From Sphingomonas jeddahensis (lineage in GTDB: Bacteria; Pseudomonadota; Alphaproteobacteria; Sphingomonadales; Sphingomonadaceae): DNA of 64,000 bases. Where the stretch lies: the NCBI RefSeq assembly GCF_001981525.1, contig NZ_MPSB01000002.1, positions 248,001 through 312,000 of the forward strand. The letters are read 5' to 3'. Positions 12,058 to 37,734 of this stretch are shown in pieces. The position numbers were made by a program, and so were the translations under genes. Position 1 is the stretch's first letter. Each line of letters opens with the position of its first letter. The notes beneath the pieces were generated by a model that was not told where the DNA came from, did not search any database, and saw only the letters and a program-made list of their open reading frames with translations.

Positions 12058-12065
12058 TCTGATCT

Positions 12066-12169
12066 CCCATCCCGCTTGCGGGAGGAGTCAGGGGTGGGCT
12101 GTCCATAACCACGCTTTCCCCTGACCGACACGCCCAACCCCCAACCCCTCCCCGCAAGCGGGAGGGGAG
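12066..12169. repeat. PalC palindromic repeat (double hairpin)
   Basis: The left arm CCCATCCCGCTTGCGGGAGG and the right arm CCCCGCAAGCGGGAGGGGAG each form a hairpin; a GGGGTGGG / CCCAACCCC pair lies inside. It is an intergenic member of the family whose other copies enter rnr (20256-20357) and the murC/murB junction (36218-36320). It lies between maoC and the thiolase. Confidence 0.8.
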
Positions 12170-12186
12170 TTGAAGGACCACCATCC

Positions 12187-19200: not shown

Positions 19201-21504
19201 TTACTTCTTTCGTCCCTGATGCCGGATATTGCCGGGCCGCCCGCGCCGCTTCAGCACGCGCGGCGGGCCGGACTTGCGATCCTCGCGTCGCCCGGGCCGG
19301 GCGCCCTTCCCTTCCTCCAGCTCGAAGCGAAGCGCACCTGAAACCGGGTTCGCCTCCGCCAATCGAAGCTTCAACCGCATGCCCAGCGTATATTCCTCGC
19401 CGCTCGTCTCGCCGACCAGCCGCCGTCCCGCCTCGTCGAAACGGAAATATTCGCCGCCTAGATCGCTGATCGGCATCAGCCCGTCGCCGCCGATCCCCTC
19501 GACGGTGGCGAAGAAGCCGAAATTCTGGATGCCGGTGATCCGGGCATCGACCACCTCGCCGACGCGCTCGGCCAGGAACGCGGCGACGTAGCGGTCGATC
19601 GTGTCGCGTTCGGCCTCCATGGCGCGGCGTTCCAGCTTGCTGATCGTCTCGCCGAGCCGCTCGAAATCCTCGTCGCCGTTCAGCCCGCCGGGGCCGAGCG
19701 CATGGGCACTGGTCAGCGCGCGATGGACCAGAAGGTCGGCATAGCGGCGGATCGGCGAGGTGAAATGCGCGTAGGAGCCGAGCGACAGGCCGAAGTGGCC
19801 GTGATTGCTGGGCCCGTAATAGGCCTGGGTCTGCGAGCGCAGGATCTGCTCCATTACCTGCGGGCGGAAATCGGCGTCGCCGATCCGCTCGATGATGCGG
19901 TTGAAGGTGGCGGGCTTGATCACTTGGCCGAGCGCAAAGGGCACATCGAACGTGTCGAGATAGTCCTTCAGCGCGACGAGCTTTTCGCGCGAGGGCGGCT
20001 CGTGGACACGGTACATGACCGGCGCCTTCTTCGCCTCCAGCGCCTTGGCGGCGGCGACGTTGGCGGCGATCATGTAATCCTCGACGAGGCGGTGCGCATC
20101 GAGCCGCTCACGCGGCGCAACCGAGAGCAGGCGCCCCTTTTCGTCGAGCGCGACCTGCCGTTCGGGGAGGTCCAGCCCAAGCGGCTCCCGCTTGTCGCGC
20201 GCCGTGGCGAGGGCCGCCCAGCAATCCCAAAGGTTGCGGAGGGCGGTGAGGATATCCCCCTCCCGCTCGCGGGAGGGGCTAGGGGAGGGCTTGTCCGCGA
20301 GGGTTCGGTCTATGTCGACAGGCCCTCCCCCAACCCCTCCCGCAAGCGGGAGGGGAGCCCCGTCGATCATTGCTTGAGCGTCTTCGTAAGCGATGTTGCT
20401 GGCGATCCGCACCACCGCGCGCGTGAACCGCCACGACTTCAGCGCCCCCGCCTTGGTGATCTGCAGGTGGCACGCCATCGCGGCACGATCCTCGCCTTCC
20501 TTCAGCGAGCAAACATCCGCCGACAGCACCTCCGGCAGCATAGGCACCACCCGATCCGGGAAATACACCGAATTGCCGCGCCGCCGCGCCTCGCGGTCAA
20601 CGTGGCTGCCCGGCCGCACGTAGAAACTGACGTCAGCGATCGCCACCACCGCACGGAAGCCACCCGCATTCGCAGGATCGTCGTCAGGCTCAGCCCAGAT
20701 TGCGTCGTCATGATCGCGCGCATCGGCGGGGTCGATCGCAACGATCGGCAGATGGGTCAGATCTTCGCGCCCCTCCCCCAGCGGCTGTTTCGCCACCCGC
20801 ACCGCTTCGTCGAGCGTTTCCTGATCGAAGACGTGCGGGATCTCATGCTTGTGGATGGCGATCAGCGAGAAGCTGCGCGGCGCAAACGGATCGCCCAACC
20901 GCTCAATCACCTTCGCGGTGATCCGCGGCGGCCGCCCCGCGCGCTCCGCCAGCACCAGCTCGCCCGGCTCCGCACCACCCGCGTCGGACACCGGATATTC
21001 GCGCTTCTCCTTCTTCTCCACCCCCTGCAGCCAGAGCCGGTCGCCCTCGCCGCGCAGCACGCCGATCATCTGCTCGGCAGATGGCGCAAGCGTCTTCATC
21101 GGATGCGCGATCCAGCCGTTCCCGGCCTCCTCGGTGCGCGCCAGGACGCGGGTACCGACGCCCAACTCCCCACGTTTGCGCTCGCGCACGCGGATGCGCG
21201 GCGGCGGTGTTTCCGCCTCCCATCGCTCGGGCACGGCCCAGATCGTGCCGCCATCGTCGACATCGGCGACCCGCAGCACCGTCACCTTGGGCAAGCCACC
21301 CATCTTGTGGAAGGCGCGGCCGGGGGCGCTGTCGATCAGCCCCTCGTCGGCCATGTCGCGGAGCAGCGCCTTGAGCCCGATCTTCTCCTGCGCCGTCAGC
21401 CCGAACGCACGCGCGATCTCGCGCTTGCCGGCGGGCGTGTCGCTGGTGGCGATGAAATCGAGGATCTGCTGGCGGCTCGGCAGGCCCGCTTTTGGTTTAC
21501 GCAT
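19201..21504 (-). CDS. rnr: Ribonuclease R with an in-frame palindromic insert
   Basis: A 767-residue 3'-5' exoribonuclease degrading structured RNA. The order is an N-terminal helix-turn-helix-like region, cold-shock domains, the RNB catalytic domain with D-A-R-D-H-D-D-A at about 258-265, then an S1 domain and a basic Lys/Arg-rich tail. Residues about 383-416 are encoded by a complete PalC repeat (20256-20357) inserted without a frameshift after Y-E-D-A-Q-A-M-I-D-G. That spot aligns with a connecting region in Escherichia coli RNase R. The ATG at 21504 is chosen because the 24 upstream codons have no family similarity. Confidence 0.93.
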   Translation of the reverse strand: MRKPKAGLPSRQQILDFIATSDTPAGKREIARAFGLTAQEKIGLKALLRDMADEGLIDSAPGRAFHKMGGLPKVTVLRVADVDDGGTIWAVPERWEAETPPPRIRVRERKRGELGVGTRVLARTEEAGNGWIAHPMKTLAPSAEQMIGVLRGEGDRLWLQGVEKKEKREYPVSDAGGAEPGELVLAERAGRPPRITAKVIERLGDPFAPRSFSLIAIHKHEIPHVFDQETLDEAVRVAKQPLGEGREDLTHLPIVAIDPADARDHDDAIWAEPDDDPANAGGFRAVVAIADVSFYVRPGSHVDREARRRGNSVYFPDRVVPMLPEVLSADVCSLKEGEDRAAMACHLQITKAGALKSWRFTRAVVRIASNIAYEDAQAMIDGAPLPLAGGVGGGPVDIDRTLADKPSPSPSREREGDILTALRNLWDCWAALATARDKREPLGLDLPERQVALDEKGRLLSVAPRERLDAHRLVEDYMIAANVAAAKALEAKKAPVMYRVHEPPSREKLVALKDYLDTFDVPFALGQVIKPATFNRIIERIGDADFRPQVMEQILRSQTQAYYGPSNHGHFGLSLGSYAHFTSPIRRYADLLVHRALTSAHALGPGGLNGDEDFERLGETISKLERRAMEAERDTIDRYVAAFLAERVGEVVDARITGIQNFGFFATVEGIGGDGLMPISDLGGEYFRFDEAGRRLVGETSGEEYTLGMRLKLRLAEANPVSGALRFELEEGKGARPGRREDRKSGPPRVLKRRGRPGNIRHQGRKK
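20256..20357. repeat. PalC palindromic repeat inside rnr
   Basis: This is a complete double-hairpin element with arms CCCCTCCCGCTCGCGGGAGG and CCCTCCCGCAAGCGGGAGGG, plus the internal TCGACAGGCCCTCCCC segment. It is about 102 bases (34 codons) and adds no stop codon. It is read on the minus strand as a Pro/Gly/Arg-rich peptide with A-P-L-P-L-A-G-G and P-S-P-S-P-S-R-E-R-E-G. The intergenic copies are at 12066-12169 and 36218-36320. Confidence 0.9.
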
Positions 21505-21637
21505 CCCCGCTAGATAGGGAGCCGCCCGCAGCGGGTCACCCGATGATTTTGCGACGAACCCGACGGCGCTCGCCACCCGGACGCTGGAAGCTGCGCGGCA
21601 CCCGCGCTATTCCTACCGCTTTTGAGGAGATGGTTTG

Positions 21638-35329: not shown

Positions 35330-36274
35330 TCACGCCGGCACCCCGACGCGCTGGATTTCCCATTCGAGGGTCACGCCGCTGGTCTCCTTTACGCGGGTGC
35401 GGACTTCCTCGCCGAGCGCTTCGATGTCGGCGCTGGTCGCTTGCCCCAGGTTGAGGAGGAAGTTGGTGTGCTTCTCGCTGACCTGCGCGTCGCCGCGCTT
35501 GAGGCCGCGGCAGCCGGCTTCGTCCACCAGTGCCCACGCCTTATGGCCGGGCGGGTTCTTGAAGGTCGAGCCGCCGGTTTTGGAACGCAAGGGCTGCGAC
35601 GCCTCGCGCGCGGCGGCGATGCGGTCCATTTCGGCCTGGATCGCTTGCGGTTCGCCGGGGGTGCCGCGGAAGGTCGCGCTGATGACGATCGCGCCTTCGG
35701 GCAGGTTGGAGTGGCGGTAGGTGTAGCCGAGTTCCGATGCCGCGAGGGTGCGGCGTTCGCCGGTGCGCAGGATGACGTCGCACTCCACGAGGATGTCGGC
35801 GGTCTCGCGGCCGTAGGCGCCGCCGTTCATGCGCACGAAGCCGCCCACAGTGCCGGGGATCGAACGGAGGAATTCGACGCCAGCGATCCCTGCGTCGCGC
35901 GCGGTGGAGGAAACGAGGACGCCGCTTGCGCCACCGCCGCACTTCAGCGTGGTGGCGTCGATCGCCTCGACCTTCGCGAAGGGTTTGCCGAGGCGGACGA
36001 CGACGCCGCGGACGCCGCCGTCGCGGACGATGAGGTTCGAGCCCAGCCCTAGTGGAAGGACCGGGACGCTTTCGTCGAGGTTGGCGAGGAAGTTCGACAG
36101 GTCCTCGACCTTGGCTGGTTCGAAGAGGAAGTCGGCCTTGCCGCCGGATTTGAACCAGACGAGCGGGGCCAGCGGGGCGTTCTGGGTGAGGCGGCTTTGG
36201 GCAGGCGCGACCTCATTCCCCTCCCGCTTGCGGGAGGGGTTAGGGGAGGGATTGTTGGGCAAGAACGTGGTCAT
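35330..36274 (-). CDS. murB: UDP-N-acetylenolpyruvoylglucosamine reductase, with repeat-derived N-terminus
   Basis: A 314-residue FAD enzyme reducing UDP-GlcNAc-enolpyruvate to UDP-MurNAc. The FAD/substrate motifs [21 protein letters not shown] and the catalytic-region A-T-F-R-G are present, and the C-terminal half has the Ser-containing [11 protein letters not shown]. The start ATG at 36274 overlaps the murC stop (ATGA). Residues about 2-19, including [11 protein letters not shown], come from the PalC repeat, which also provides the GGAGGG ribosome site. The conserved part begins around N-A-P-L-A-P-L. Confidence 0.93.
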
Positions 36275-36320
36275 GAGTTGACAGGCCCTCCCCCAGCCCC
36301 TCCCGCAAGCGGGAGGGGAG
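36218..36320. repeat. PalC repeat straddling the murC/murB junction
   Basis: It has the same architecture as the rnr copy: arms CCCCTCCCGCTTGCGGGAGG and CCCTCCCGCAAGCGGGAGGG, inner TAGGGGAGGG and GGCCCTCCCC. On the minus strand it encodes the last 15 or so codons of MurC, the murC stop, the murB ribosome site, the murB ATG and the first codons of MurB. Confidence 0.9.
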
Positions 36321-37734
36321 CTTGATGCGCCTCGATCGCGGGGGCGAGGTTGGCGGCCCATTTTGTGATGTCGCCGGCGCCGAGACAGATGACCTGGTCG
36401 CCCTGGCGCAACTCGCCTGCGAGTGCTCGGGCGAGTGCGTCGGCGTCCGACACCGTTGCTGCCGAGCGGTGGCCGCGGTGGCGCAGGCCCTCCACCAAAG
36501 CTTCGGCATCGACGCCGGGGACCGGCGCCTCGCCGGCGGCATAGACCGGCGTCACGTACACCGCGTCGGCATCGTTGAAGGCGCCCTGGAAGTCCTCCAT
36601 CAGATTGCCGAGACGCGAGTAACGGTGCGGCTGGACGACCGCGATCACCCTGCCCTGCGCGCTTTCCCGCGCGGCGGAGAGGACGGCGCGAATCTCGACG
36701 GGGTGGTGGCCGTAATCGTCGATAATCGTGGCGACACCGCCGGCAAGGGGCACTTCCCCGACCTTGGTGAAGCGACGCTTGACGCCGTTGAACTTCTCGA
36801 AGCCCTTCTGGATCGTCGCGTCGTCGATACCGAGCTCAAGCGCGACGCCGATCGCGGCAAGCGCGTTCTGGACGTTGTGTCGCCCGGGCATCGGCAGGTC
36901 GATGCCCTCGATCGAGCGGGTGGTGCCATCGCGGTGGCGGATGATCGCCTCGAAGCGGTTGCCGCCGGGATAGGGCGCAACGTTGACGCCGCGCACGTCG
37001 GCGCTGGCCGCGAAGCCATAAGTGACGATGCGGCGGTCGCGGACGCGCGGGATCAGCGCCTGCACTTCGGGGTGATCGAGGCAGAGCAACGCCGCGCCGT
37101 AGAAAGGTACGTTTTCGACGAATTCGACATAGGCGTCCTTGGCCTTGTCGAAGCTGCCATAGTGATCGAGGTGCTCGGGATCTATGTTGGTGACCACCGC
37201 GATTGTGCCGTCGAGGCGCAAGAAGCTGCCGTCGCTTTCGTCGGCCTCGACCACCATCCAGTCGCTGTCGCCGAGACGGGCATTGGAGCCGTAGCTGTTG
37301 ATGATGCCGCCGTTGATGACGGTGGGGTCGACGCCGCCGGCGTCGAGCAGCGCCGCGACCATTGAGGTGGTCGTTGTCTTGCCGTGGGTGCCGGCGACCG
37401 CGACGGTGGATTTCAGCCGCATCAGCTCGGCGAGCATTTCGGCGCGGCGGACGACGGGGATGCGCCCGTTGAGCGCCGCCTCGACCTCAGGGTTGCCGCG
37501 CTTCACGGCAGTGGAGATGACGACCACCGCCACGCCGTCGACGTTGGCGGCGTCATGGCCGATCGTGACCTTGATGCCGCGGGCGCGCAGGCCCTCGATG
37601 ACGTATCCTTCCGCCACGTCGCTGCCCTGCACGGTGTAGCCGAGGTTGTGCATCACCTCGGCGATGCCCGACATGCCGATCCCACCGATGCCGACGAAGT
37701 GGATCGTGCCGATGTCCGTTGCGACGCCTTTCAC
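36271..37734 (-). CDS. murC: UDP-N-acetylmuramate--L-alanine ligase, with repeat-derived C-terminus
   Basis: A 487-residue Mur ligase adding L-Ala to UDP-MurNAc. The N-terminal G-I-G-G-I-G-M-S-G is at about 16-24, the ATP loop G-T-H-G-K-T-T at about 115-121 and the Mur-ligase E-A-D-E-S-D-G-S and H-N-V-Q-N motifs follow. The GTG at 37734 is preferred over an in-frame TTG at 37752. The last 15 residues ([16 protein letters not shown]) lie in the PalC repeat and closely match the insert in RNase R. Confidence 0.94.

Follow-up and report, generated by a model that had tools for sequence, protein, structure and literature searches.

A dispersed palindromic repeat lies in frame within the RNase R gene of Sphingomonas jeddahensis, at a loop that holds several palindrome families across the genus

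The RNase R gene (rnr) of Sphingomonas jeddahensis contains a complete copy of a long palindromic repeat, PalC, and the locus raises the question of how such an element comes to lie in frame inside a housekeeping gene and what becomes of it there. We analysed a window of 64,000 nucleotides containing rnr and compared its features with other copies of the repeat in the same genome and with rnr in related species; coordinates are given in Table 1.

The gene is read here from its ATG, and an upstream GTG at 21576 is an alternative start giving a longer protein. The product matches the Pfam RNB and CSD2 models above their cut-offs; S1 scores 21.4 (cut-off 22), and TIGR02063 scores 577 bits, slightly below its cut-off of 597.85, with the match split into two stretches. 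The RNB match (residues 249-602, in a numbering that is 3 higher as the query protein began three codons 5' of the ATG) spans the insert, so its placement in the RNB domain by a sequence-only reading of the window stands, and translation and folding confirm the claim of that reading that a full, stop-free double hairpin adds about 34 residues in frame. The reading frame is open on either side. Two GC-rich hairpins have outer arms that pair as well, making one long dyad with a predicted folding energy of -97.9 kcal/mol (z -9.0), which none of 200 shuffles equals. Among solved structures E. coli RNase R (5xgu) matches best, and by sequence it has about 10 residues where the S. jeddahensis protein has about 35. 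In an AlphaFold model built with 64 sequences (pLDDT 88.2, pTM 0.78; a shallower model with 35 sequences, pLDDT 62.5 and pTM 0.45, was set aside) residues 387-403 are the sole internal stretch with pLDDT below 50, and they lie between helices 373-381 and 412-439. The earlier proposal of a surface loop is upheld in that the loop, flanked by two helices, is of low confidence and presumably disordered, and its position on the protein surface is suggested by the model confidence and secondary structure.

Table 1. Features of the window and PalC copies within other conserved genes of the S. jeddahensis genome
Feature	Position	Strand	Remarks
rnr (RNase R)	19201..21504	-	767 aa from ATG at 21504
PalC palindromic repeat, in frame in rnr	20256..20357	-	102 nt, encodes RNase R residues 383-416
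PalC first hairpin, mRNA order	20334..20355	-	CCCCTCCCGCTTGCGGGAGGGG; from sequence and consensus of 36 copies
PalC second hairpin, mRNA order	20256..20278	-	CCCCTCCCGCGAGCGGGAGGGGG; from sequence and consensus
PalC outer complementary arms and variable spacer	20279..20333	-	TTGGGGGAGGG ... CCCTCCCCTAG; from sequence, fold and consensus
Second PalC copy of the window (L007)	36217..36321	-	End of MurC and start of MurB
Third PalC-like copy of the window (L257)	12065..12170		No open frame with coding signal across it
PalC in ileS	residues 486-518 of ORF		Within tRNA-synt_1
PalC in dnaE	residues 319-354		
PalC in biotin carboxylase/PCC alpha subunit	residues 402-436		Adjoining and within Biotin_carb_C
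PalC in dihydrolipoyl acyltransferase	residues 118-153		Between lipoyl and E3-binding domains
PalC in coaBC	residues 327-360		Between domains

PalC occurs in at least about 40 places in the genome (3.11 Mb, 28 contigs), counted from a search that gave 86 matches with both strands counted and in which 40 of 68 candidates were scored. We examined 41 loci, 24 from one genome search and 17 from another, and 36 copies (L027 and the split or partial-match loci L245, L247, L255 and L256 being left out) yield the consensus CTCCCCTCCCGCTTGCGGGAGGGGTcGGGGGaGGGccTGTC ... GcGGACA.GCCCtCCCCtAgCCCCTCCCGCAAGCGGGAGGGG, with a variable spacer and the ends CTCCCC...GGGGAA. The element had been taken to be otherwise intergenic, which has to be revised: six of the 41 loci lie within conserved genes with coding signal on both sides, namely rnr, ileS, dnaE and the genes for a biotin carboxylase, a dihydrolipoyl acyltransferase and CoaBC. 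Pfam finds nothing in the large ORFs over the copies at L010, L030 and L250, which were rejected as genes. The expectation that another copy encodes the tail of MurC and the N-terminus of MurB proved correct at about 36217-36321, where the ATGA stop/start overlap of murC and murB sits in the spacer of the repeat, and MurB domains are found. The window also holds a further dispersed repeat of the genome, a CTTCGACA(A/G)GCTCAG palindrome resembling the family H described below, at 2379, 5351, 33232, 37759 and 59074. At 147, 8934 and 35273 it has GGATCCCCGCC(T)TCGCGGGGATGACG repeats, which resemble published CGTC REPs.

Assignment of PalC to described classes of small repeats gave the following. 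At consensus boundaries, at most one of the 36 copies has a 4-9 nt direct repeat at any of 81 boundary offsets tried, and assignment as a MITE was rejected in the absence of this target-site duplication. The consensus lacks the end tag CGTC (or TGTC or CCTC) with a stem of 8-9 bp and a loop of 4-5 nt, a TGTC/GACA pair being located internally, and assignment as a CGTC REP was rejected on this ground. A GTAG REP with a RAYT as its mover was likewise rejected, the GTAG tag being absent from either end of the 36-copy consensus and PF01797 (Y1_Tnp) having no match in this genome; the same search finds PF01797 in 10 of 61 genomes, and it is present in five of 14 control genomes. None of the 82 listed Rfam matches reaches its gathering score, and most are to microRNA models, which we take as hairpin artefacts. 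No match to PalC was found in phages, and none of the nine plasmid records matched (seven from Sphingomonas and one each from Qipengyuania and Sphingopyxis) has a single place covering 80% of the query. PalC does have several attributes of a Rickettsia-like palindromic element: it is dispersed in its own genome, is in frame and stop-free in a conserved gene, occurs in several unrelated proteins and is missing at this rnr site in relatives.

An RNase R match is present in 287 of 295 Sphingomonas genomes, and we read 210 rnr records, comprising 130 genomes (S. jeddahensis and 129 chosen from the remaining 286 that match) and 80 named records. The 130 genes were hand-picked from a ranking by similarity to the insert-bearing query, ten of them for split matches promising an insert-free loop, and 53 of the 80 named records were kept as non-identical in the last 600 residues. 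Dropping identical ends leaves 183 rows, nearly all titled Sphingomonas, of which 170 are distinct around the site; the 13 that repeat another row there contribute extra sister pairs scored as the same and no added changes. Across the site the frame is kept and free of stops in all 210 records. A TAG in L034 and L036 falls immediately 5' of the start codon, beyond the interval tested, and G231, listed with a TGA, is outside the records read. With the frame kept in every record, a sequencing slip, raised earlier as a possible source of error in the frame, is unlikely.

The loop varies from 18 to 80 residues, and by peptide motif 83 of the 183 rows (74 of the 170 distinct ones) have a palindrome-class loop. 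This class accounts for 72 of the 130 hand-picked genome rows and 11 of the 53 named records, figures that are not estimates for the genus because the rows were picked by similarity to an insert-bearing query. Hairpins with z below -3 are predicted in 75 of the 83 palindrome-class rows, compared with three of the 100 other loops. Families were assigned by peptide motifs picked by eye, and blastn clustering of the inserts (E < 1e-4) groups motif classes A, B, D, E and F together (46 rows and one remnant) and gives C (11), G (10, including one J row), J (8), I (4) and H (2), which stay apart at this threshold except for the one J row joining G. Accordingly we count six families at the one loop, classes A, B, D, E and F being versions of a single double-hairpin family in different frames. 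Long extra stretches also concentrate at this loop: at least 12 extra residues are present there in 123 of the 183 rows and elsewhere inside the protein in four (L101, L168, L235 and L238), with a few further extensions of this size in the C-terminal tail. One of the four, L235 (Sphingomonas sp. Leaf33), carries family C twice, in the usual loop and again about 140 residues upstream. In several lineages (L120, L158, L216, L232, L281 and L286) the loop has a non-palindromic peptide around SSPC, which may be an ancient insert that has been domesticated.

The nearest relatives include S. dokdonensis and S. mucosissima. Absence of the insert from close relatives, which the sequence-only reading proposed to test, is seen in S. 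mucosissima (L121/L162) and Sphingomonas sp. IC-11 (L035/L163), which have short loops, as do L122 and L123 among others; S. dokdonensis has an insert of a different family. We also read 51 loops from other genera of the order (46 plus five fetched for odd lengths or cut-off matches), and L380 and L383, from other genera of the same family, have inserts that fit family I by eye.

The distribution of these loop states was compared with a FastTree phylogeny of RNase R with the loop removed, in which 43 of 180 inner branches are drawn open and some forks are poorly supported. Parsimony requires 54 changes among seven superfamily states (68-81 in 100 shuffles) and 37 for presence or absence of an insert (52-68 in shuffles), and family identity among the 83 palindrome-bearing rows changes 28 times. 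These counts do not separate gain from loss, and the direction given to single changes at the loop is presumptive. Changes are fewer than in shuffles yet many, indicating inheritance with fast turnover. Sister pairs differ in loop state in 17 of 56 cases; unrelated inserts occupy the loop in L043/L045, L091/L116, L064/L072 and L059/L090, and in L052/L194 and L061/L187 the first member has an insert and the second a short, hairpin-free loop. Across the genus this loop thus houses many palindrome families besides PalC, a point absent from the sequence-only reading, and the copy in S. jeddahensis rnr is a single episode in a process that recurs.

Scar-like remnants of inserts are also found. Of an insert resembling that in L078, L118 retains the right arm alone, and L174 has one hairpin where L053 has two, the pattern that a deletion between the repeated CCCTCCCG arms would leave. 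Alignment of L031 with the insert-free L121 gives no exact junction, and no clean empty site for PalC was found in the rnr comparisons; with neither a clean empty site nor a target duplication, PalC insertion is not directly seen. The family H inserts of L064 and L090 are 99% identical over 67 nt, their 120-nt flank windows are 70-92% identical and their left junctions differ, which suggests recent parallel entry or exchange.

A family tends to be more abundant in genomes whose rnr carries it. Among 39 hand-picked genomes the association (Mann-Whitney) has p values of 0.001 for G, 0.006 for A, 2e-5 for A and D grouped afterwards, and 0.02 for H, the last resting on two genomes; copies were counted among 22-23 candidates scored, on both strands and with the rnr copy included, kinship was ignored, and four of ten motif classes were covered. 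Six genomes without an rnr insert have a lower total of repeats of the four families (p 0.0005). Abundance of family C is unlinked to its presence in rnr (p 0.38), and G129 and G131, two of those six genomes, have many C copies yet no rnr insert. PalC itself is abundant in S. jeddahensis, G049, G100 and G121 and scarce in G176, G129, G131 and G183.

The inserts differ from their surroundings in the constraint on them. Nine pairs whose inserts are homologous give a pN/pS of 0.58 for the inserts (Nd 81.7, Sd 53.3) and 0.048 for the flanks (Nd 149.5, Sd 1045.5; 550 flanking codons per pair), and the inserted peptide is weakly constrained while the frame is kept. That the frame is under selection is indicated by comparison with 31 PalC copies of the S. 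jeddahensis genome outside single conserved genes, treated as noncoding (the murC/murB copy is included, and L245, L247, L255 and L256 are left out): only 103 of their 186 frames are open, 83 containing a stop, and the matched stretch is divisible by three in only 13 of the 31, as against 83 in-frame, stop-free inserts out of 83 in rnr. Synonymous divergence is lower in the inserts (0.178) than in the flanks (0.278); age, stem composition or conversion between copies may hold the insert DNA back, and the difference is partly unexplained. Among eight related inserts 89.5% of cells still pair, and variable columns number 27 of 86 where paired and 21 of 40 where unpaired. Both sides change in one of 43 pairs, no better than in shuffles or slid controls, and less variation in paired columns without covariation agrees with decay of the hairpin rather than its upkeep.

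The pattern at the rnr loop is repeated in IleRS and, to a lesser degree, in DnaE. For each gene we read the best 30 of 61 genomes, our own included, ranked by an insert-bearing query. All 30 ileS loci (L320-L349) are in frame, and inserts that fold strongly by an energy mark set post hoc and without shuffles (-0.58 per nt or lower) occur in 16 of them at one loop, between TPQWFI.(M/V)D and TLR, with several peptide motifs, making this a second multi-palindrome site; by the same mark such inserts are present in four of 30 dnaE loci.

Three rnr loops contain a smaller palindrome nested in a resident one. In L381 a 64-nt second palindrome within the PalC left arm replaces the GGAG of L095, in L100 another 64 nt stands in place of CTTC of L107, and in L136 a related element of about 49 nt (judged by eye) is in place of CTCC of L088. 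All have AG...CT ends and complementary outer arms, and both 64-nt elements have two inner hairpins. The Y-shaped 64-nt type recurs with the same ends in several Sphingomonas genomes (L387, L395, L396, L399 and L406-L408), and the S. jeddahensis genome has no convincing match to it (best E 0.17 and 2.1). Its fetched matches of at least 45 nt number 17, two of which are rnr loops themselves, and 11 of the 17 have PalC-like GGGAGGGG or CCCCTCCC within 30 nt, by eye. These arrangements suggest that palindromes may themselves be targets for other palindromic elements. An extension of this idea, which we put forward tentatively and regard as somewhat doubtful, is that the loop may be a self-perpetuating landing pad, in which a first in-frame palindrome becomes the preferred target and families replace each other at the same codons, the 64-nt element being one follower.

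We consider it highly probable that PalC was copied into rnr and kept since it is in frame in a permissive, disordered loop, where families recur, decay and are replaced. On this account the non-autonomous, dispersed PalC would copy itself into rnr, presumably by way of a putative trans-acting enzyme, and selection would retain it because it keeps the frame, has no stop and occupies a disordered loop at the protein surface, flanked by two RNB helices, where the extra peptide, probably translated and probably without a selected function, would be harmless. The same loop would be a permissive site throughout the genus, entered repeatedly by resident palindrome families; the hairpin would decay, or collapse by deletion between repeated arms, so that a peptide specific to the lineage remains, and another family may then supply the next occupant of the loop. 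Recurrence could be explained without such a selection filter if repeats home on a DNA feature at the site, possibly a resident hairpin, and the three nested palindromes, together with the PalC-like motifs flanking 11 of the 17 places of the smaller element, point that way. However, unrelated families would need the same target, the flanks of the ileS and dnaE sites encode unrelated sequence, and L052 and L061 have inserts although the loops of L194 and L187, to which they are closely related, are short and form no hairpin, and we judge a DNA target preference to be unlikely.

Function in the RNA or the protein has also to be considered. The rnr hairpin is very stable and RNase R with PNPase targets structured, REP-containing mRNAs (according to extracts of PMC12320835), such that it could act as a cis-regulatory element coupling decay of the message to the level of RNase R. 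Yet 100 of the 183 rows lack a palindrome-class loop, insert family, length and structure vary between rows, ileS and dnaE show the same pattern, and both-side changes in one of 43 pairs do not exceed controls even though 89.5% of cells pair; regulation at the RNA level is quite improbable, and autoregulation by RNase R was dropped once ileS gave the same pattern. Recurrence at one loop, persistence over species and a pN/pS below 1 would fit a Pro/Gly/Arg-rich segment kept as an aid to RNase R, but the peptides are unrelated, the loops differ widely in length, close relatives lack the insert and constraint is about 12-fold weaker than in the flanks, so that a protein-level benefit has very little probability. 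That the insert never reaches the protein, through RNA removal or ribosome skipping, is an idea prompted by so stable a hairpin within coding sequence; removal would not require that all 210 records keep the frame without stops, as they do, 83 of 186 frames of other PalC copies contain a stop, and we give this idea almost no credence. Copying into a permissive loop, with retention by frame, decay and replacement, remains our preferred reading.

Elements of this kind are known elsewhere. Rickettsia palindromic elements (RPEs) are reportedly the subject of work by Ogata et al. in 2000 and 2002 and by Claverie and Ogata in 2003. RPEs and PalC are both dispersed palindromes in frame inside conserved proteins, and the likeness proposed by the sequence-only reading is sound as to kind, in-frame protein invasion by a dispersed palindrome; we make it as a likeness of kind and not of sequence homology, the Sphingomonas host is free-living and GC-rich, and one loop has been entered by six families. 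One paper describes RPEs as in-frame repeats in conserved proteins that are still functional, with repeat identity fading over time (PMC6649704). The same paper reports inverted repeats inside protein genes of Nematomorpha mitochondria, gained and lost between species; those palindromes are perfect and apparently maintained, whereas the Sphingomonas ones seem to decay. Among bacteria, the enterobacterial RU-1/2/3 elements are, in extracts of Delihas 2007 (PMC2759123), small, mobile, MITE-like repeats with open frames within genes; like PalC they lie within genes, but their hosts are different and the extracts describe no recurrent site.

The supposition that no such repeats had been reported in sphingomonads does not hold, as Di Nocera et al. 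2013 (PMC3733652) list REPs lying within genes of S. alaskensis and E. litoralis (for tRNA synthetases and TruB), and further report different REPs at about the same site in recB of two Xanthomonas species. REP dimers of the GTAG and CGTC types are thus also intragenic, and family G of the rnr inserts shares CGTC/GACG ends with them, whereas PalC is longer and without either tag. The main text of that paper does not name rnr, and open-access titles, abstracts and ranked extracts contain no description of rnr invasion or of a multi-family site, which is weak evidence of absence. The kind of event is therefore already known from RPEs and intragenic REPs, and the recurrent invasion of one loop by several families is the new part.

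One spot of RNase R, a housekeeping enzyme, seems to be rewritten time and again by mobile DNA. Sphingomonas is free-living and has hundreds of sequenced species, in which palindrome invasion can be traced at one site from entry to decay with many replicates; this makes testable how repeats move without a recognised transposase, how selection tolerates them in a housekeeping enzyme and whether they supply new disordered segments to proteins. If the landing-pad reading were true, a protein loop would be rewritten in each lineage.
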